Origin: a bacterium
GTDB lineage: Bacteria > ARS69
Assembly: GCA_025774805.1 (NCBI GenBank)
Contig: JALGZR010000142.1
Span: 1-8,003 of the forward strand
Reading direction: 5' to 3'
DNA length: 8,003 bases
Shown: positions 8 to 7,813 of the stretch, piece by piece
Numbering within the stretch: position 1 is the first letter of the stretch
How the letters are laid out: each line of letters starts with the position of its first letter
Made by a program: the position numbers and the translations under genes
The notes under the pieces: model-generated
The model's database searches: none
Told to the model about the DNA's origin: nothing
What the model saw: the letters and a program-made list of their open reading frames with translations, nothing else

Positions 8-1309
8 GTGGACGCGGAGCTCTTCGCCTACCGGGCGAACCCGACGAACGCGCGATTCGGCCGACTCTACGACGCCGCGCGCCCCTGGCTGACCGCGGTC
101 GGGACGGCGACCGTCGGGAGCTACCGGTCGCTTTCGGTTTCCGGGGCGCTCGACGACGTCGTGAACGAGGGGGCGCTGACGCTCTCGACCGCGGCCCGCG
201 GGTTCGCCTACTTCTGCCCGGCCTGCGACCGGGCGTTCCTCCACCGCCGCGACCTGCGGGCACATGCGGTCGCCGAGCACCGGCGGCGCGGGACCTTCGG
301 CGCGGTCTCGCTCCCGCGGTTCGCACGGACCTCCGCGCGGTTGGCGATACGGCGGGTCGCGCGGAACCTCCACCGCCCGGAGCTGCTCGAGGCGGCGGAA
401 CCCGACCCGGTGGACCCCGGCGACCGGGTCTTCCTGGGGATCCTGATCGACGAGCTCCGCGGGCGGTTGAACGAGGACGCCCGCTGGTGTCTCGAGCGGC
501 TGCTGACGCTCGAGGAGTTCGACCCGGTGATCGTCGGGGTCGTGCGCGAGGAGACGCGAAAACTCATCTCGGATAAACGAACCCGACGGCGGAGGATCTC
601 GGCGATGGCAGCGAAGTTCTCGGAACCCAAGTGGAAGGAGCTGAACGTCCGGACGCTGCGCGAGACGGCGACGGAGGTCCTCGGGATCGAGACCGAGGAG
701 CGGACGATGAAGGCGGCCTATCGCGACCTCTGGGAGAAGGCGGTCGCCGCCGGGATGAACGGGTTCGAGTGCGATACCTGCGACGCGCCGGTCGACGACT
801 CGGTCGCGCGCTGCTGGGCCTGCGGGAGCGTCCTCGACGAGGAGGCGCCGGAGGAGGAGGTCGTCGAGGTCGAGCTCCTGAACCGCGCGCGGAAGCTGGG
901 GATCGAGACCGAGGGGAAGGACCGCGTCGAGTTGCTCCTGGAAATCGAGCGACTCGAGACGGCGACCCGGGCCGCCCGGCGGAATGTCGACCTCCTCACG
1001 ATCGAGTCGAAGCGGCTGAACGAGCAGGTCACGGAGGCGATGCCGGACGGGTGGACGAAGAAGCGGACGAAGCTGTACGTGGTCTATCTCGACCCGGGGA
1101 AGAAGACGCGGATCGTGATCTTTCACAACGGGCTGAAGATCCACTTCCGGGTCGAGGAGGGGTTTCTCGACGGGTTCCCGGACCTCATGTTCTTCGACGC
1201 CGACGAGCGCCGCCGGCGACACTACGGGCGGGTGAACTACGAATATACCGGGGACACCGCGAGCTACGCGCTGGACCTCTGCAAGCGGGTTCTGGGGCGG
1301 TACAAGTGA
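8..1309 (+). CDS. C2H2 zinc-finger / zinc-ribbon protein, possibly sigma-like; start uncertain
   Basis: Probably a nucleic-acid-binding regulator of 433 residues. A textbook C2H2 finger is visible: Cys70, Cys73, Phe77, Leu83, His86 and His91, with normal spacing. A four-cysteine zinc ribbon follows (Cys255, Cys258, Cys269, Cys272). Residues 288-317 have the look of a SAP-type DNA-binding helix pair (LGIETEGK then a leucine-rich helix). The C-terminal 85 residues (about 349-433) look like a separate alpha/beta domain that I do not recognise. By eye, residues 47-67 (DDVVNEGALTLSTAARGF) resemble sigma-70 region 2.2, and residues 103-124 (FARTSARLAIRRVARN) resemble region 2.3/2.4; the zinc finger would then be inserted between them. 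That reading is inference. The GTG at position 8 is the first start codon visible, but the frame is open to the left edge, so the true start may lie upstream. The TGA overlaps the GTG of the next gene. Confidence 0.8.
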   Translation: MDAELFAYRANPTNARFGRLYDAARPWLTAVGTATVGSYRSLSVSGALDDVVNEGALTLSTAARGFAYFCPACDRAFLHRRDLRAHAVAEHRRRGTFGAVSLPRFARTSARLAIRRVARNLHRPELLEAAEPDPVDPGDRVFLGILIDELRGRLNEDARWCLERLLTLEEFDPVIVGVVREETRKLISDKRTRRRRISAMAAKFSEPKWKELNVRTLRETATEVLGIETEERTMKAAYRDLWEKAVAAGMNGFECDTCDAPVDDSVARCWACGSVLDEEAPEEEVVEVELLNRARKLGIETEGKDRVELLLEIERLETATRAARRNVDLLTIESKRLNEQVTEAMPDGWTKKRTKLYVVYLDPGKKTRIVIFHNGLKIHFRVEEGFLDGFPDLMFFDADERRRRHYGRVNYEYTGDTASYALDLCKRVLGRYK

Positions 1310-2175
1310 TCGACTGCGTCGTCCTCGGCTGCGGGTTGGTCGGGCTGCTCGCCGCCTATCTGATTGAGGCGGACGTACTGATCGGACGGAGCGCGGGCGT
1401 CTCCGCGCTCTCGCGTTTCCTCCCGGGATTCGTTCGCCGCGGGGAGGCGATCGTCGCGCTCGCGCGGGAGCTCGGGCTTCCAACCGGCGGTAGGACGGCG
1501 CGCGTGGTCGACCTCGATAGGACGCGCGAGCGGAGCGTCGAGGAGTTCGACGCGACGCGCTTCGACCGCGAGGACCTCGCGCGGAAGTTGCTCAACCGGA
1601 TGGAGCCCACGGTCGGCGAGGTAACCGCGGTGGAGATCCGGCGGACGGACGGGCGGGAGCTCCCGCGGGTCCGGGTGGCGGTCTCCGGCGGGCGCGAGGT
1701 CTGGACACGGCAGGTCGTCAACGCCCTCCCGGCCCCGGCTTTCGACACCGTTCGGCGGCACGAGGACGTCTTCAACCGGGCGGTCGCGCGGGAGTGGACG
1801 GCGCCGGAGACGACGTTGATCCGCGTTCCGGTCGCGACGCTCTCCGAGCGGGTTCGGCGGGCGCTGGAGGAGCCGGGGGCGGTCGGGGTCCGCGCGCCGG
1901 GGACCGACGCGTCGGTCCCGTTCGAGCGGGTCTGGGCCAAGGGGGACGAGGCGATCCTCGAGATCCGTCGTCCGGAGCTGGTTCCGACCGGCGGCGCGTG
2001 GGGGGAGATCCCGACGCTCCGGAGGGCGATCCACCCGAAGGGCGCGAGTCGGGACCCGGTGGAGCACGCCGGGACGGTCCTCCACGTCGGGCGACTGGCG
2101 CGCTGGGACCGACGGATCGGGCTGAACGAGGTCGCGAGGGACCTCCTCGCGTACCGGGAGGAGGCGAGTCGATGA
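1306..2175 (+). CDS. FAD/NAD(P)-binding oxidoreductase-like protein
   Basis: A 289-residue protein that opens with a dinucleotide-binding Rossmann motif: a short hydrophobic strand, then G8-C9-G10-L11-V12-G13, then a helix and a second strand. Two further features fit the amine-oxidase / UDP-galactopyranose-mutase-like flavoprotein superfamily: a middle strand ending in VVNALPAP (137-144), like the 'P-loop after strand' of those enzymes, and a C-terminal VLHVGRLARWDRR stretch (258-270), like their second FAD contact. The protein is short for that superfamily, so it probably has a reduced substrate domain. The substrate cannot be read from the sequence. The start is GTG at 1306, overlapping the upstream TGA; a weak G-rich stretch precedes it. 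The frame extends far upstream of this GTG, but that part is a shadow of the zinc-finger gene. Its place before three nucleotide-metabolism genes suggests a redox step on a nucleotide or a modified base, which is inference. Confidence 0.72.
   Translation: MIDCVVLGCGLVGLLAAYLIEADVLIGRSAGVSALSRFLPGFVRRGEAIVALARELGLPTGGRTARVVDLDRTRERSVEEFDATRFDREDLARKLLNRMEPTVGEVTAVEIRRTDGRELPRVRVAVSGGREVWTRQVVNALPAPAFDTVRRHEDVFNRAVAREWTAPETTLIRVPVATLSERVRRALEEPGAVGVRAPGTDASVPFERVWAKGDEAILEIRRPELVPTGGAWGEIPTLRRAIHPKGASRDPVEHAGTVLHVGRLARWDRRIGLNEVARDLLAYREEASR
2157..2164 (+). promoter_or_regulatory. Strong Shine-Dalgarno for the deoxyribosyltransferase-like gene
   Basis: GGAGGAGG lies inside the end of the upstream coding frame, 7 bases before the ATG at 2172. 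It supports that ATG as the start rather than any codon in the long upstream extension of the same frame. It also shows translation initiation by base-pairing with 16S rRNA, which is compatible with either a bacterial or an archaeal host. Confidence 0.7.
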
Positions 2176-2648
2176 CCGGGAAGATCTACTTCGCCGGACC
2201 GTGGTTCAACCCGCGGCAGGTCGAGCGGTACGAGGCGGTCCTCTCCGTCCTGACGGAGTGGCGGGACGACCTCCCGACCGAGCGCGGGCTCTACGTCCCG
2301 CGGGAGGTCCCGTGTCCGCCGGACGCGGACGTCGTGAGACGTCGGCGCGTCTACGACCGGAACCTCGCGGAGCTCGAGGATTCCACCGCGGTCGTCGCGA
2401 TCACGGACGAGAAGGACATCGGGACGATCTTCGAGCTGGGGTACGCGGCGAAGATTCGGGACGGACGGGTAACCGGTGGGTCGATACTTACCGGTCCGAA
2501 GCTGATCGGTATCGCCTTCGACCTCGGGGGGAACCCGTTCAACCTGATGCTCGCGCAGGGCCTCGACGCCGTCTGTCTCTCGCTCGACGAGCTACGGGCG
2601 GTCGTCTTCCACGGCGTGGCGGTCTCCTACGACGGGACGATCGAATGA
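2172..2648 (+). CDS. Nucleoside 2-deoxyribosyltransferase-family protein
   Basis: A 158-residue single-domain protein, the usual length for this family. The N-terminus (KIYFAGPWF, 4-12) is the family's substrate-binding strand and loop. DEKDIGTIFELGYA (79-92) is the signature segment, with Glu88 as the likely nucleophile; Asp62 and Asp82 stand at spacings like those of the acidic residues of lactobacillal enzymes. NPFNLMLAQG (121-130) matches the C-terminal Asn motif contributed across subunits. Family members exchange the base of a deoxynucleoside, or, in the DNPH1/Rcl and MilB/BlsM branches, hydrolyse the glycosidic bond of nucleoside monophosphates. The sequence alone does not say which. 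Start ATG at 2172 is supported by a strong Shine-Dalgarno and the ATGA overlap; another ATGA joins it to the ThyX-like gene. Likely roles are base salvage or removal of an unwanted nucleotide. Confidence 0.83.
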   Translation: MTGKIYFAGPWFNPRQVERYEAVLSVLTEWRDDLPTERGLYVPREVPCPPDADVVRRRRVYDRNLAELEDSTAVVAITDEKDIGTIFELGYAAKIRDGRVTGGSILTGPKLIGIAFDLGGNPFNLMLAQGLDAVCLSLDELRAVVFHGVAVSYDGTIE

Positions 2649-3694
2649 ATAGAGCCGACGAACTGAGGGAGATAAAGGAGCGATTCGGATCTTGCCCGAC
2701 GATGGCCGCGCGTCCACGGACGGTCTTCGTCCGCGGGGTCGAGGGGATCGAAGTCGACCTCCTCGACGGGCCGATGAATCCGTACCGATCGCTCTACGTG
2801 ATGGCACTCTCGACCTGGACGCACTTCGGCGACTGGGGTCGGAAACGGTGGCGGGAGGCCGACGTCGAGACGCGGATCGCGGTCGTTCGGATGGTCCTCG
2901 CGGCGAAGGCGCTCCCACTCGCCATGGAGTCCCCGAAGTTCGCCTTCGACGTCTCCGGGTGCTCGCGGAGCTCTTTCGACCAGATCGCTCGCGCGCGGGT
3001 CGGGGTCGTCTTCGCTAGTCTTGGCTCGCGGGACAACGACTTCTCGGCGACCCCGTTCCGGATCTCCGAGGCCACCTGGCGGGACCCCGCGCGTCTCGAG
3101 CGGAAGAAGGCCGCGATCTTCGCGGCGCACGCGGCCTACGTTACGGAGATCGCGTACCGCGGCGGCGACTACTGGTCGCCGACCTTCGAGACCTGTCGCG
3201 AGCAGCTCCCGCTCTCGGTCTGCTGGCGGGTCGTCATGTCGATCAACTTCGCGGCTCTCCGTGGGTTCTGCGCGCGGCGGATGACATTCAGCGAGCAGAG
3301 CGACACCGTCGCGGTCGCCTGGCTTATCCGTGACCGTCTGATGAAGTCGGACGCCTATCCGCTTCTCGGCGCGTGGCTCAGGCCGCGGTGTGATTTCGTC
3401 CGGAAGTGTACGTTCCACGTCCCTGGAGACGACTCCGAGATCTTCCGTGGGCTGAATGTGACATGCGGGCGGAACCCGCTCGCCGCCCCATGCGACTACG
3501 TCGCGGAGTTCGCCGACCACCAATGCCCGTCGACTGACCCGGAGGCGTTCAAGGCGCAGATCGGGGTCAAGATCCCGGACCCGGACGAGGAGCGACCGGA
3601 GACGTTCGAGCTGACGGAGCGTGACCTCGAGCTCTTCCATGACGACGGACCGTTCGACGATGGTCTCTCCGGCTCCCCGGTGGTCTACCGATGA
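2645..3694 (+). CDS. Divergent ThyX-like (flavin-dependent thymidylate synthase family) protein
   Basis: A 349-residue protein whose middle follows the ThyX layout. KFAFDVSGCSRSSFDQIARAR (98-118) aligns with the strand and helix before the family's RHR triad, here Arg116-Ala-Arg118, followed by a Ser/Arg pair (Ser128, Arg129). REQLPLSV (185-192) and NFAALRGFCARR (201-212) match the second conserved block, with its Asn and Arg. ThyX makes dTMP from dUMP using FAD, NADPH and methylene-folate. The RHRxxSxNExSxR signature is strongly eroded here: the His and the central Ser, Asn and Glu are missing, so the true reaction may differ. ThyX is usually about 210-260 residues. The extra C-terminal 100 residues hold Cys249, Cys255, His258, Cys274, Cys283, His292 and Cys294, a possible metal site. 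The ATG at 2645 overlaps the previous stop, and the longer upstream frame is a shadow. Confidence 0.75.
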   Translation: MNRADELREIKERFGSCPTMAARPRTVFVRGVEGIEVDLLDGPMNPYRSLYVMALSTWTHFGDWGRKRWREADVETRIAVVRMVLAAKALPLAMESPKFAFDVSGCSRSSFDQIARARVGVVFASLGSRDNDFSATPFRISEATWRDPARLERKKAAIFAAHAAYVTEIAYRGGDYWSPTFETCREQLPLSVCWRVVMSINFAALRGFCARRMTFSEQSDTVAVAWLIRDRLMKSDAYPLLGAWLRPRCDFVRKCTFHVPGDDSEIFRGLNVTCGRNPLAAPCDYVAEFADHQCPSTDPEAFKAQIGVKIPDPDEERPETFELTERDLELFHDDGPFDDGLSGSPVVYR

Positions 3695-4560
3695 TTTACG
3701 TCTTCGAGGGGATCGAGGGTGTCGGTAAGACGAGCACAGCTTCGAGGTTCGCACGGAGGAGCGGACTCGAGGTCTACAACGACCCTTCGCGGCGGGCGCC
3801 GGCGGCGGCTGAGCGGACGCCGGGGGATTGGATGCGCCTGGGGAACCAGGCGAACCTCGACGTCGCGGAGTTCGCGAGGATCGCCGACTTCGTCGTCGAC
3901 CGCTGGTGCCTTTCCTCCATGACACTCGATTTCCTCCGTGGGGTCTATGCCGGCGACGATTTCTATCGTCTGATTGCGAGGAACACTAGGGCGAGGATCT
4001 TCCTTCTCGAGATAGATCCAGAGTTGGCATTAGCCCGGGCGACACGGGTACGGGAACGCGGACTGACAATCCAGATCCTTGAGGAGCGTCGGAAGCGCTA
4101 TCGCGAGGTTGCCTACCTCTGGAGCTCCTGGGGTGGTGAGGTACATTTCGTCGACACTTCAAAGGAAGACCTGGACGAGTCGATTGGAGTGGCCGACTCG
4201 GGCCTGGGAGATAGGTTCGGCGATCTCCTTTTGCGACAACGGGCATTCAATACGGAGGTATTCGCGGCTCGTGGTCTCCGACTTGGCGATCTCTCTGAGG
4301 CCGATCGCGAACGGTGGACCAGCGAGTTCGTCCTTCATGCAGAGGATGAGCTCCATGAGTTCCTCCGTGAGACCCACTGGAAGATGCACCTTCGACATGA
4401 TGATCGACAGATCTCACGCGAGAATCTTCGCGAGGAGTGGGTTGATACTTTGAAGTTTCTCCTTGGACTCGCGAACGTCTGGGATCTTGGGGCGGATGAA
4501 CTCGTCGAGGAGTTCTACCGGAAGAGCGCAATCGTCGAGGTGAAGTTCAGGGCGAAATGA
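3691..4560 (+). CDS. Thymidylate kinase fused to an all-alpha NTP pyrophosphatase (MazG / dimeric dUTPase type)
   Basis: A 289-residue two-domain protein. Residues 1 to about 165 are a P-loop nucleoside-monophosphate kinase of the thymidylate kinase type: Walker A GIEGVGKTS (7-15), the Asp-Arg pair of the DRY motif as DRW (70-72), the LLEIDPELALAR strand and helix (105-116), and a short LID with Arg117, Arg120 and Arg122. Residues from about 175 form an all-alpha pyrophosphatase domain with the metal-binding ExxE...ExxD pattern: Glu220, Glu223, Glu249 and Asp252, in DELHEFLRETHWK and REEWVDTLKFLLG. This most resembles the MazG / dUTPase_2 superfamily. Together the two halves could turn dUTP (or an analogue) into its monophosphate and phosphorylate dTMP (or an analogue). 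ATGA overlaps join it to the ThyX-like gene and to the polymerase. GC falls towards its 3' end (about 50% over 4441-4500). The exact nucleotide specificity is not readable. Confidence 0.85.
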   Translation: MIYVFEGIEGVGKTSTASRFARRSGLEVYNDPSRRAPAAAERTPGDWMRLGNQANLDVAEFARIADFVVDRWCLSSMTLDFLRGVYAGDDFYRLIARNTRARIFLLEIDPELALARATRVRERGLTIQILEERRKRYREVAYLWSSWGGEVHFVDTSKEDLDESIGVADSGLGDRFGDLLLRQRAFNTEVFAARGLRLGDLSEADRERWTSEFVLHAEDELHEFLRETHWKMHLRHDDRQISRENLREEWVDTLKFLLGLANVWDLGADELVEEFYRKSAIVEVKFRAK

Positions 4561-6128
4561 AAAAATATCCACGTGGAAGGCGCTTGATAGACGATAGTGG
4601 ATATCGATCCGGGTCTTCCTTGATTGCGGAGGCGGATACTCAGGCACTCCATGGGGATATTCACGGGAAGAAGCTCGCCGGAAAGGATCACGCGCAGGTA
4701 GTAGACGGCGACGAGATCAAGTCTTCAAATTTCGACGAGGAGGTCGGGAGGTCGATCGACGACGTCGCGGTGACGGAGATTGACGAGCGCTACCAGTGGA
4801 ACACCGAGCGCGAGTACTACCACGGGTGGTCCGAGGGGACGAATGTCGTCCTCCTTTACCGGACCGAGACCGGCGCGCGGAAGCGAGAGGTCGTTCCGTT
4901 CAACTTCTACTTCTTCGTCGATCGCAAGGAGGCCGATGCGAAGATACCCCAGGAGAAGTGGGAGTGGTTGGTCAAACGCGGGTGGGCCGATCGAGTTGTT
5001 CCCGACCCTGATTTCCCGGAGCGCTACTATCGGATCTACGTCGAGCGACCGCTGGAGCGACACGACAAAAAGCGGATCTTCGAGCGTATCGATTTCGTGA
5101 ATCGCAAATACTCGTGGGCCACTCCGCTGTACCTCGGTGAGATGACGATGGACATCAGCTTTCCGGTCGATCGTGACAAGTGGAAACCGTTCCACGAGCT
5201 AATCAACTGGTTGCAGAAGAAGGACGTCGAGCCGCTGGAGGCCGATCTCTCGCCGCGCCAGCGGTTCATGACCGACTACGACCTGAACATTCAGGCGAAG
5301 TACCGGACTATGTTCCTCGATATCGAGACCGACGACACGATCGGGGGATTCGATCGGAAGGAGAAGAACCGGATCCTCTCGATCGCGTGGCAGGGTGACG
5401 ACTTCGAGCAGGACCATTCCGATTCCGGGTACCTTGAACTCGAGGAGGAGACCGACGCGGCCGAGGAGCGGATGCTCCGACGATTACGCGACGCGATCAA
5501 ACCCTACGACGTGCTTGCCGCCTGGAACGGATTCGACTTCGACTTCCCGGTGATCTTCGCCAGGTTCTGGAAGTACAACATTCGGATCGACTGGCGCTAT
5601 TGGCTTTTCGTCGATCCATTGCCGATCTTCAGACGCCACTACATTCGAGCAGGGGCTGATGTCACGAGTTTCGCACTCGACGCGGTGGGCCAGTCGGTCC
5701 TGAAGATGCCGAAACTAGATTGGCGCTCTGGCTTCAAAAAGCAGTTCCCAGGGATCACTCCGAAGATGGTTCGTCAGTATCGAGCAGATCTTCTGCCGGA
5801 TCGGCTGCGGGTTTGCGAACGATTACAATATCTCGACGAAGGTAGATCAGCTGCTCCTGAAGAAGGGATTCAAGGAGGGCTTTCACTACAAAACGCGCTA
5901 CTGGATCGGGAAGCGACCGGAACGGTACACCGGGGCCTACGTATTCCCTCCGCAGGTCGGATTCTACCGGAACGTCGCGGACTTCGACTTCAAGTCACTA
6001 TATCCGTCGATGGTTCGAGCCTTCAATATCTCACCGGAGACGATCGTCAAGGCGGAGAGGCGGGCGGAGTTCGAGGCCGCGGGGGTCCCGACCTGCCGGT
6101 GCCCGAAGTTCGTCCCGACCGACGCTGA
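4557..6128 (+). CDS. polB: Family B DNA polymerase, N-terminal and exonuclease segment
   Basis: This 523-codon frame carries the first part of the polymerase. The true homology runs only to about codon 415. Exo I is MFLDIETDD with Asp255 and Glu257. Exo II is NGFDFD with Asn324, Phe328 and Asp329. Exo III is probably Tyr408-Arg-Ala-Asp411. All proofreading residues are therefore present. Residues 1-70 are a poorly conserved, AT-richer leader (about 47% GC over 4561-4620) that I cannot match. After about base 5800 the frame gives an unrelated, Arg/Gly-rich tail of about 105 codons, while the polymerase continues in another frame. As read here, the product would be an exonuclease without a polymerase domain. 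The start ATG at 4557 overlaps the previous TGA; GAGGTGA at 4537-4543 is a good but distant Shine-Dalgarno. Confidence 0.82.
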   Translation: MKKYPRGRRLIDDSGYRSGSSLIAEADTQALHGDIHGKKLAGKDHAQVVDGDEIKSSNFDEEVGRSIDDVAVTEIDERYQWNTEREYYHGWSEGTNVVLLYRTETGARKREVVPFNFYFFVDRKEADAKIPQEKWEWLVKRGWADRVVPDPDFPERYYRIYVERPLERHDKKRIFERIDFVNRKYSWATPLYLGEMTMDISFPVDRDKWKPFHELINWLQKKDVEPLEADLSPRQRFMTDYDLNIQAKYRTMFLDIETDDTIGGFDRKEKNRILSIAWQGDDFEQDHSDSGYLELEEETDAAEERMLRRLRDAIKPYDVLAAWNGFDFDFPVIFARFWKYNIRIDWRYWLFVDPLPIFRRHYIRAGADVTSFALDAVGQSVLKMPKLDWRSGFKKQFPGITPKMVRQYRADLLPDRLRVCERLQYLDEGRSAAPEEGIQGGLSLQNALLDREATGTVHRGLRIPSAGRILPERRGLRLQVTISVDGSSLQYLTGDDRQGGEAGGVRGRGGPDLPVPEVRPDRR

Positions 6129-6660
6129 GACCGACGAGCTCCGCGGAGGATCAACCTTCCGAATCGACCGCGAGGGTGCGATATCGCAGATGTTCGTGAG
6201 CACCCTCGAGCGGCGGAAAAAGTACACGACTCTCCAGGACGAGCGATTGCAGGTCACCGGGACGACCCAGGACGACCTGTATCTCCTCTATTATCGTCTT
6301 GCATACTCCTTCAAACGGCTCGGGCTTTCGTTCTACGGCGACATGGGCAACCCCAGATCGCGCTACTACGATACGGAGCTGGCGGAGGCGATCACCCTCT
6401 CGGGACAGTTCTTTATTACCGAGACGGCAAGATATGCACAAGAGTGCGGATTCATTCCACTTTATGGAGACACTGATTCCATATTCATTCAAATCGCGCA
6501 AAATGATACAAAATGGGAATCCGAGGAAAAACGAATTGAGGAGCTGAACCGAATCGGGAACGAGTTCGTCGAGCACTGTCAGGAACGTTATCTTGAGCAC
6601 CTGAAGTCGTTCGGATGTCGCCTCGAGTGGAATTCGGTCCTCCTCGAGTTCGAGAGGTGA
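5803..6660 (+). CDS. polB: Family B DNA polymerase, palm and fingers segment (out of frame)
   Basis: This segment continues the polymerase after the first frame change. It begins around GFANDYNISTKVDQLLLKKG, the helix that follows the exonuclease domain. Motif A is DFKSLYPS (5986-6009), with the catalytic Asp encoded at 5986. Motif B is K-R-L-G-L-S-F-Y-G (6313-6339): the Lys and YG are kept, but the usual Asn before Ser is Leu. Motif C is YGDTDS (6463-6480), with both Asp. The frame is open back to 5719, but the first ATG, GTG or TTG in it is the ATG at 6010, immediately after motif A, so no normal start would give a working palm. It ends at TGA 6658-6660, just after VLLEFER, where relatives continue into the KKxY region. 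It is a segment of a broken gene rather than an independent gene. Confidence 0.78.
   Translation, partial: GCGFANDYNISTKVDQLLLKKGFKEGFHYKTRYWIGKRPERYTGAYVFPPQVGFYRNVADFDFKSLYPSMVRAFNISPETIVKAERRAEFEAAGVPTCRCPKFVPTDAETDELRGGSTFRIDREGAISQMFVSTLERRKKYTTLQDERLQVTGTTQDDLYLLYYRLAYSFKRLGLSFYGDMGNPRSRYYDTELAEAITLSGQFFITETARYAQECGFIPLYGDTDSIFIQIAQNDTKWESEEKRIEELNRIGNEFVEHCQERYLEHLKSFGCRLEWNSVLLEFER
6451..6540 (+). other. AT-rich island across polymerase motif C
   Basis: By direct count this stretch is about 37% GC, while 6661-6720 nearby is about 70%. It encodes motif C and the acidic helix after it in the correct palm frame, so it is coding sequence. Its codons (ata, att, aat, aaa) are unlike those of the neighbouring genes. 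Confidence 0.75.
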
Positions 6661-7229
6661 TGGAGGCGATCCTGATGAAGGCGTGGGGCGGCGAGCGGAT
6701 CGAGCGGGAGATCGTCGCGCCGGCGTTCGAGCGGGTGGCCTCCGGGAAGCTCCCGGTGGAGGAGGTCGCGATCTCAAAGTCGATCTCGAAGGACCCCGAC
6801 GACTACAAGGTCGAGCCGCTCCACGTGAAGCTCGCCCGGTGGGTCCGGGACCACGGGCAGGGGTTCTTCGTCGGAATGAAGGTCGAGTACGTGGTGACGG
6901 AGTCGAAGCCGCGGCTCGGCGGGGTCCTCCTGGACCACTTCGACCCGGAGCTCCACGAGTACGACCCGATATATTATTGGGACAATCTAATATATTCCGC
7001 TACGTTACGAATTTTGGACGTCTGCTTCCCGGAGCGTGATTGGGCGGGATGGCTCATCTCGGTTAGGGACAGGCGGAGGAGACTGGTGGCGCGCTACAAG
7101 CGGTGGTTCCTGGATAAGGGCCGCGTCGGGCAGGCTGTCCGGGAGATCCGGGAGAACCGCGGGGGCGTTTTGAGCGAGCGGGAGCTCGCCGAACTCCGAC
7201 GGGCCCCACGATTGAGGACTCTGATTTGA
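6615..7229 (+). CDS. polB: Family B DNA polymerase, thumb / C-terminal segment
   Basis: This 204-codon frame holds the polymerase thumb. Homology starts at about REVMEAILMK (base 6651). The ATG at 6615 and the 12 codons after it only shadow the palm segment. Recognisable features are the helical ISKSISKDP-type stretch, the VKLARWVRDHGQGFF loop before the 'GxxVxYVV' strand, and near the end DPIYYWDNLIYSATLRILDV followed by FPERDW, which is the standard end of family B enzymes. A basic tail of about 55 residues follows, part of which may bind DNA or a partner. The stretch encoding YYWDNLIYSATLRI is abruptly AT-rich. The stop at 7227-7229 overlaps the TTG of the next gene, so the end of the gene is intact. 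It is not likely to be a separate gene unless this is a naturally split polymerase. Confidence 0.75.
   Translation: MSPRVEFGPPRVREVMEAILMKAWGGERIEREIVAPAFERVASGKLPVEEVAISKSISKDPDDYKVEPLHVKLARWVRDHGQGFFVGMKVEYVVTESKPRLGGVLLDHFDPELHEYDPIYYWDNLIYSATLRILDVCFPERDWAGWLISVRDRRRRLVARYKRWFLDKGRVGQAVREIRENRGGVLSERELAELRRAPRLRTLI
6961..7020 (+). other. AT-rich island in the polymerase thumb
   Basis: By direct count about 38% GC, between lines of about 70% (6901-6960) and 63% (7021-7080). The frame reads correctly through it as the conserved C-terminal polymerase segment. The change in base use is abrupt on both sides. Confidence 0.75.
6969..6995. repeat. AT-only inverted repeat, 8-bp arms
   Basis: ATATATTA at 6969-6976 is the exact reverse complement of TAATATAT at 6988-6995, with an 11-base spacer. 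Three more pairs are possible inside the spacer after a 2-base bulge. It lies within the coding AT-rich island, so it may be chance in low-complexity sequence. Confidence 0.5.
7214..7218 (+). promoter_or_regulatory. Shine-Dalgarno deciding a TTG start
   Basis: GAGGA lies 7 bases before the TTG at 7226. There is no ATG in this frame until 7448, well inside the protein. The spacing and the TTGA overlap make TTG 7226 the best start. Confidence 0.6.
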
Positions 7230-7813
7230 GGAAGTTAGCGAGCACGGGCGAGTCCCAGCGGGCGATCGAGCGCCACGAGCGGCGCGGCGACCGCTTCGGG
7301 TTCCTCCGCGAGCGGCTCTCGGGGGTGGACGTCGAGGGGATCTGGGCAGAGCTCGAGCGGGAGCTGACGCTCGGGGATCGCGCCCGGAGCGCGGAGCGCC
7401 TGGAGGTCGCGCTGGACGCGGTGGACGGGAACTCGCGGAAGGCCGGCATGCTCCACCAGACGGCGACCGAGGAGCTCGAGGAGTTCAACGTCCACTTCCG
7501 GGCGGCCTTCTCCGAGTGGGAGGCGCACGCGCGGGCGCACCTCGAGCTGCGGAAGCGGGAGAAGCGGCACTCCGGGGCGATTACGGTCGAGCTGGTCGAG
7601 AACTGGGTCGCCCGGAACGTCGCGGCCTACGGGCGCTGGAAGCGCGCCCGACTGGCGCTGGAGCGGACGAAGGCGCTCACGAAGCAGATGGTCGAGGCCT
7701 GGCAGTCGCGGGCGGCCTCGCTGCGGAAGATGGCGGACCTCGCTATGAGTAGGCGCGGGGTTGATCCGAACATGCTCGACCGCCGCAGACGGCGGGGAGG
7801 AGACGAAGAATGA
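7226..7813 (+). CDS. Helical charged protein, possibly a UvsY-like recombination mediator
   Basis: A 195-residue protein predicted by eye to be almost wholly alpha-helical, rich in Glu, Arg, Ala and Leu, with no signal peptide, membrane segment or catalytic motif. Residues about 78-175 form long amphipathic helices broken near HSGAIT (115-120). The C-terminus has an Arg-rich patch (186-190) before an acidic end. The pattern of two long helices, a short break near a Gly, a Val/Tyr-containing helix and then a final helix ending in an 'R..SLRKM' box recalls T4 UvsY, which loads the UvsX recombinase onto single-stranded DNA. The resemblance is of pattern only, not of firm sequence. Position next to the polymerase fits a replication/recombination role. 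The TTG start is chosen on the TTGA overlap and Shine-Dalgarno; its TGA overlaps the ATG of the next gene. Otherwise unrecognised. Confidence 0.65.
   Translation: MRKLASTGESQRAIERHERRGDRFGFLRERLSGVDVEGIWAELERELTLGDRARSAERLEVALDAVDGNSRKAGMLHQTATEELEEFNVHFRAAFSEWEAHARAHLELRKREKRHSGAITVELVENWVARNVAAYGRWKRARLALERTKALTKQMVEAWQSRAASLRKMADLAMSRRGVDPNMLDRRRRRGGDEE
7794..7803 (+). promoter_or_regulatory. Shine-Dalgarno for the last, partial gene
   Basis: GGGGAGGAGA sits inside the end of the upstream gene, its GGAGG core 9 bases before the ATG at 7810. It supports the start of a gene that is cut by the window end. Confidence 0.65.

Follow-up and report, generated by a model that had tools for sequence, protein, structure and literature searches.

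A candidate viral pyrimidine-modification cassette with a ThyX-like protein beside replicative polymerases

The cassette and its interrupted polymerase gene

The window, which is the whole stretch of DNA analysed here, coincides with the whole of contig C263 (8003 bases), which belongs to a bacterial MAG of 5.1 Mb. Its features are listed below with reference to L007, a 106-kb IMG/VR sequence that was retrieved with the core of the window polB (71% identity).

8-1309, forward strand: zinc-finger/zinc-ribbon protein (weak Zn-ribbon and C2H2 matches in Pfam)
1306-2175, forward strand: flavoprotein of the UDP-galactopyranose mutase (UGM)/amine-oxidase superfamily, GTG start (N-terminal GxGxxG, profile, model)
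2172-2648, forward strand: nucleoside deoxyribosyltransferase (NDT) or dNMP N-hydrolase-like enzyme (PF05014, phrog_7995, PDB matches)
2645-3694, forward strand: divergent ThyX-like protein with RAR for RHR and a Cys-rich C-terminal extension (PF02511, model, relatives)
3691-4560, forward strand: fusion of a TMPK-like kinase and a MazG/all-alpha dUTPase-like domain (PF02223, PF08761, phrog_761, phrog_173)
4557-5789 (end approximate), forward strand: PolB exonuclease part, frame 0, 49% to L007 PolB residues 67-469
5770-6657 (start approximate), forward strand: PolB palm and fingers, frame +1, YGDTDS intact, 71% to L007 PolB residues 493-782
6651-7229 (start approximate), forward strand: PolB thumb and C-terminus, frame 0, 53% to L007 PolB residues 832-1023
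7226-7813, forward strand: conserved protein downstream of polB, 54% to L007 11595-12128
7810-8001, forward strand: N-terminal part of a further conserved protein encoded after polB, truncated by the contig end, 54% to L007 12161-12331

The four cassette ORFs at 1306-4560 are intact and open throughout, with 4-nt GTGA/ATGA overlaps linking successive genes; the zinc-finger gene before them and the two genes after polB are connected by 4-nt overlaps too. A sequence-only reading had described four genes in strict overlap, and both this arrangement and its coordinates and gene types (flavoprotein, NDT family, divergent ThyX and kinase-pyrophosphatase fusion) agree with the ORFs and with the Pfam and PHROGs matches, the family profile and the models. 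Its further statement that polB follows is correct for the start, which lies at 4557 in another ATGA overlap with the kinase::MazG gene, but the polB gene is split over three frames, whereas the relatives have one intact ORF. The zinc-finger protein shares 38% identity with the product of L007 1664-3019, which occupies the equivalent place, and the block in the PolB relatives likewise begins with this conserved gene. A mini thymidylate synthase (mini-ThyA), an SDR and a UDG, which occur in relatives, are absent from the 8 kb contig. On another contig of the same MAG, a UvsX-like protein is encoded at G000:C79:100187-100993 (L068; 28% identity, E 6.7e-19), and this gene may belong to a further virus or prophage.

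When aligned with the uninterrupted PolB of L007 (1026 aa), the window polB matches residues 67-469, 493-782 and 832-1023 in changing frames, and approximately 24 and 50 residues are missing at two frameshifting deletions located within 5740-5840 and 6620-6690. The lost segments include the KKRYAG stretch and the YNRYD stretch, the latter of which we read as the ExoIII motif. The two frames share a short stretch at the first junction, consistent with either a deletion between short repeats, and thus real decay, or a collapse during assembly. An intron is an unlikely explanation for the interruption, given that conserved segments are missing, nothing is inserted and no Rfam RNA family occurs in the window. 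The window flavoprotein also lacks two loops that are conserved in the alignment of its relatives, and together with the broken polB this suggests that the window copy of the cassette may be defective. In the PolB of a related virus (L009/L037; L037 11879-16372), an intein-like insertion of approximately 425 aa interrupts YGD|TDS, beginning with Ser and ending with His-Asn before Thr.

Recurrence of the gene set in viruses

Viral scans with protein P0003 and with the N-terminal part of polB returned nothing; the polB core led to L007, and searches with alignments of the ThyX-like protein then yielded 8 and 23 loci. These loci were fetched by the ThyX-like protein alone, so the presence of the other genes beside it owes nothing to the search. 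With near-identical loci merged, we count approximately 16 uncultivated virus lineages besides the window in which relatives carry the functional set beside a replicative polymerase of the PolB (L007, L009, L010, L012/13 and L014), PolIII (L015, L044, L048, L049, L052, L054 and L057) or PolA type (L043). Besides the ThyX-like protein, the recurring set comprises a TMPK-like kinase, a flavoprotein with a UGM-type fold and MazG paired with either NDT or a HAD phosphatase; an SDR, a UDG domain and a mini-ThyA with a dCMP-type Asp are often present as well. The PolB group has the gene order resolvase, zinc finger, flavoprotein, MazG::HAD, ThyX-like, kinase, (SDR), (mini-ThyA), UDG and polB. The place of the flavoprotein is held in L043 by a GxGxxG protein that the family profile does not match. 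L008 encodes PolIII, a ThyX-like protein and MazG, together with an NDT that is fused to the kinase and a YfbR-type phosphatase, and its comparison with the window and the other relatives indicates that the candidate dNMP-removing enzyme varies (HAD, NDT or YfbR) while the rest is constant. The sequence-only reading had suggested looking for its four-gene order in other viruses. The functional set does recur, in unrelated virus lineages and with three polymerase families, but that order is not the general form, and the window NDT stands where the relatives have MazG::HAD.

Cassette HMMs were run as a control over 2917 ORFs of further loci, and in three nearly whole contigs (G060, G062 and G066) the matches were confined to the cassettes. 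The scan of genome contigs returned 34 stretches and no cassette relative, and therefore gave no sign of spread in cellular genomes. Among isolate phages, Megablast with the window found no match, and tblastn with P0003, P0001 and L048 proteins found no cassette relative and only weak ThyX matches.

Two cultivated phages carry partial sets. Geobacillus phage GR1 encodes an NDT, a YfbR-type phosphatase, a weakly TMPK-like P-loop protein, a mini-ThyA and PolIII, and its ThyX keeps RHR with an altered downstream motif. Xanthomonas phage XcP1 encodes a flavoprotein that matches the family profile (33.5 bits), a HAD protein, an SDR, PolIII and a ThyX with RTR; the HAD protein, XcP1_048, is assigned by Pfam and is unmatched by our own HAD and MazG profiles. 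PHROGs files the XcP1 flavoprotein and the GR1 mini-ThyA under unknown function. A UDG domain in GR1 PolIII was considered and rejected, as the profile match came from the protein's own inclusion and Pfam finds none.

The ThyX-like protein and its partner enzymes

The ThyX-like protein of the window matches Thy1 (PF02511, E=4.1e-10), and its structural model (pLDDT 71) superimposes on ThyX with a Z score of 13.5, with 156 chains at Z>=8. The RHRX7S signature is altered, with RAR in the window and Gly in the Ser88 column. Across the cassette family, RHR is replaced by R[A/T]R, and two further catalytic positions, the equivalents of H53 and S88, are lost. In numbering that we take to be that of T. 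maritima ThyX and placed by motif, the H53, H79 and S88 equivalents are H, H and S in the canonical copies and L, A or T, and G in the ten main cassette copies; the His53 equivalent is Leu in all cassette rows and His in 4/4 canonical rows. The Arg residues at the 78, 80, 147 and 174 equivalents are kept in every row of both kinds, and the ThyX-like protein also shares an E58 equivalent with canonical ThyX. In the tree, a branch with support 100/99 separates the cassette ThyX-like rows from the canonical rows, although XcP1 and one cassette row lie on long branches and their exact places are unsure. A protein also named PolB, the UMP/dUMP methylase of the ThyX family from Streptomyces cacaoi, was among the structure-search matches and offers a precedent for a ThyX-family enzyme outside dTTP supply; it is non-viral and acts in an antibiotic pathway, and its likeness is at the level of the fold.

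Plain dTTP supply would explain the standard trio in the set: MazG/dUTPase would form dUMP, ThyX would convert it to dTMP and TMPK would yield dTDP, with NDT or HAD only recycling nucleosides. Consistent with this explanation, the window MAG has no other ThyX, and XcP1 and GR1 have one ThyX each, with no Pfam-detectable ThyA in either. However, a separate canonical ThyX (E about 1e-48) with RHR and Ser is encoded elsewhere in four relatives (G060, G062, G065 and G066), of which G060 also encodes a dCMP deaminase and a class II RNR. The loss of the catalytic signature, together with this second ThyX in four viruses, therefore makes plain dTTP supply unlikely, and the UGM-like flavoprotein, HAD and mini-ThyA would be unneeded for it.

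Beyond the catalytic positions, the ThyX-like protein differs from canonical ThyX in its C-terminal extension and in its gene organization. Nine aligned main-type members, including that of the window, share three aligned Cys residues in the extension and a fourth near the end, which may form a metal site. Within L047-L057 (L048 9980-11507; also L047, L049, L052, L054 and L057), the protein is divided into two tandem ORFs. ORF A carries the GCRDN and SWQ.AR/SWQSGR motifs and ORF B carries SRARVG/SRARIG and the Cys-rich tail, a partition that would be expected of a heteromer with one shared active site. Directly after the split pair in L048, GroES- and GroEL-like genes were recognized by eye (11497-13414).

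The window flavoprotein has GxGxxG at its N-terminus and no significant Pfam match; it shares 28.7% identity with its L007 homologue (E 3e-14), and the family profile retrieves UGM (1.3e-5). The AlphaFold model of the L007 homologue (pLDDT 90) superimposes on A. fumigatus UGM (5hhf) with a Z score of 20.6 and an rmsd of 3.3 over 288/300 residues, and the PF[D/Y]R motif is shared. Protoporphyrinogen oxidases follow closely (Z 19.5), so the assignment is clear at the superfamily level and less so for the family. Unlike UGM proteins of 365-510 aa, the flavoprotein has approximately 300 aa, and identity is approximately 16%.

The UGM fold, the L048 SDR (RmlD_sub_bind 5.7e-26) and the genes near the L048 cassette that encode one glycosyltransferase confirmed by Pfam and others resembling glycosyltransferases would fit a nucleotide-sugar pathway (e.g. 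to a dTDP-furanose) for glycan or DNA glycosylation, in which the flavoprotein acts as the mutase and the RmlD-like SDR performs the last step. We regard such a pathway as quite improbable: L009, L014 and the window lack the SDR, the set showed neither a nucleotidylyltransferase nor a dehydratase, and the pathway would not account for the ThyX-like protein, mini-ThyA, MazG::HAD or the constant position next to the polymerase.

The remaining window enzymes belong to nucleotide-metabolizing families. The NDT matches PF05014 above its cut-off (E=7.9e-11), phrog_7995 (2.3e-17) and PDB entries 7o62, 6qai and 1f8x, and it carries the ELGYA and PFN motifs. The kinase domain is a predicted dNMP kinase at the family level, with Thymidylate_kin PF02223 at its cut-off (4.2e-6) in the window and at 1.1e-10 in L007. 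The MazG part matches dUTPase_2 PF08761 below its cut-off (6e-4); kinase and MazG, fused in the window, are two separate genes in relatives. MazG, with NDT in the window and with HAD in relatives, is a candidate for dNTP pyrophosphohydrolysis and removal of the canonical nucleotide. In L048, a separate trimeric dUTPase lies beside MazG::HAD, and MazG is therefore not needed there for dUTP.

Many cassettes encode the mini-ThyA, a protein of 150-215 aa with invariant Cys, Arg-Ser, Asp at TS position 177 and His; L049 and L052 have it as a fusion with the kinase. Two members score above the Pfam ThyA cut-off, and a profile of seven other members matches the T4 gp42 group (hhalign, 96% probability, E 3.8e-9); the L007 member has no Pfam match alone and is placed by profile comparison only. 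At TS position 177, an Asn-to-Asp change switches preference from dUMP to dCMP (PMC8670742). Judged from this residue, the mini-ThyA leans toward deoxycytidylate, and hence cytosine, without deciding the matter.

A UDG-superfamily gene precedes polB in four PolB viruses, and UDG domains are fused to PolA in L042/L043 (C-terminal; L043 10929-13325) and to PolIII alpha in L044 (N-terminal; 6138-9929), an arrangement suggesting that uracil or another base is policed during replication. Such UDG domains, and the degradative families of NDT, HAD and MazG, could alternatively serve nucleotide sanitation, with the set removing a toxic or host-made odd pyrimidine nucleotide and UDG clearing the DNA, rather than making such a nucleotide. 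Human DNPH1 removes hydroxymethyl-dUMP. Conservation of a dNMP-activating kinase and two synthase-family proteins with the degradative enzymes argues against sanitation, which we consider slightly less probable still than the nucleotide-sugar pathway.

A proposed route to an altered pyrimidine nucleotide

What could such a set accomplish? Our observations concern which genes are present, how the set recurs across lineages, the folds, the lost motifs and the canonical ThyX encoded separately in relatives. From them we infer enzyme activities, a step order, a modified base and its candidate identity (C or T), and we consider it probable, with reservation, that the cassette is a virus-encoded module that makes an altered pyrimidine deoxynucleotide and so supplies the viral replicative polymerase. 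MazG, with NDT in the window or the fused HAD phosphatase in relatives, would destroy the competing canonical dNTP or dNMP. The ThyX-like protein, with mini-ThyA in many relatives, would alter C5 of the pyrimidine dNMP; it keeps the Arg147 and Arg174 equivalents, and the mini-ThyA with Asp177 is present in relatives and not in the window. The UGM-like flavoprotein, joined by the SDR in relatives, would tailor the product or an attached group, the TMPK-like kinase would activate the altered dNMP, and the adjacent polymerase would incorporate it. Each family singly also has ordinary nucleotide-supply roles, which weighs against this modification reading. The pyrimidine-modification cassette suggested from the sequence alone is thus strengthened by the recurrence of the set, the lost ThyX signature, the second canonical ThyX and the mini-ThyA, while modification itself stays at the level of a proposal.

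The proposed module resembles the T4-type 5-hydroxymethyl-dCMP pathway (gp42, dCTPase and gp1 kinase) in its TS-family enzyme, dNTP pyrophosphatase, dNMP kinase and dCMP deaminase, and, as in T4, the altered nucleotide would be made before incorporation. The mini-ThyA of relatives carries the gp42 residues Cys148, Arg168-Ser169 and Asp179. Unlike in T4, the main synthase-like enzyme is ThyX-derived, a UGM-like flavoprotein is added, the window has no mini-ThyA and no T4-type glucosyltransferase was found. The SPO1, ViI and M6 sets for hydroxymethyluracil and thymidine hypermodification likewise combine depletion of a canonical pyrimidine nucleotide, a synthase-like enzyme and a kinase, but they use ThyA-type dUMP hydroxymethylases, and no paper describing a ThyX-based set was found in the literature searched.

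A broader proposal is more tentative, and we place it somewhat short of an even chance: a widespread viral pyrimidine hypermodification pathway in which a ThyX-derived enzyme (a pair of complementary half-enzymes in some viruses) works with a minimal thymidylate synthase of the dCMP type and a UGM-like flavoprotein to produce an undescribed DNA base. Known premodified phage pyrimidine routes use ThyA-type hydroxymethylases. A ThyX-derived route that includes a UGM-like flavoprotein and lies next to three unrelated kinds of polymerase would, if real, add new base chemistry and another means of escaping restriction. Several viral families whose present annotation is thymidylate synthase or unknown would also gain a function. 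The partial sets of the cultivated GR1 and XcP1 make the hypothesis testable.

Base-tailoring genes in the rest of the genome had also been put forward as a check. No base-tailoring transferase was found consistently, and PF00535 is absent in G060 and G061. Downstream of the L048 cassette, a run of glycosyltransferase-like genes extends over 15447-21452, the first of which is the Pfam-confirmed member.
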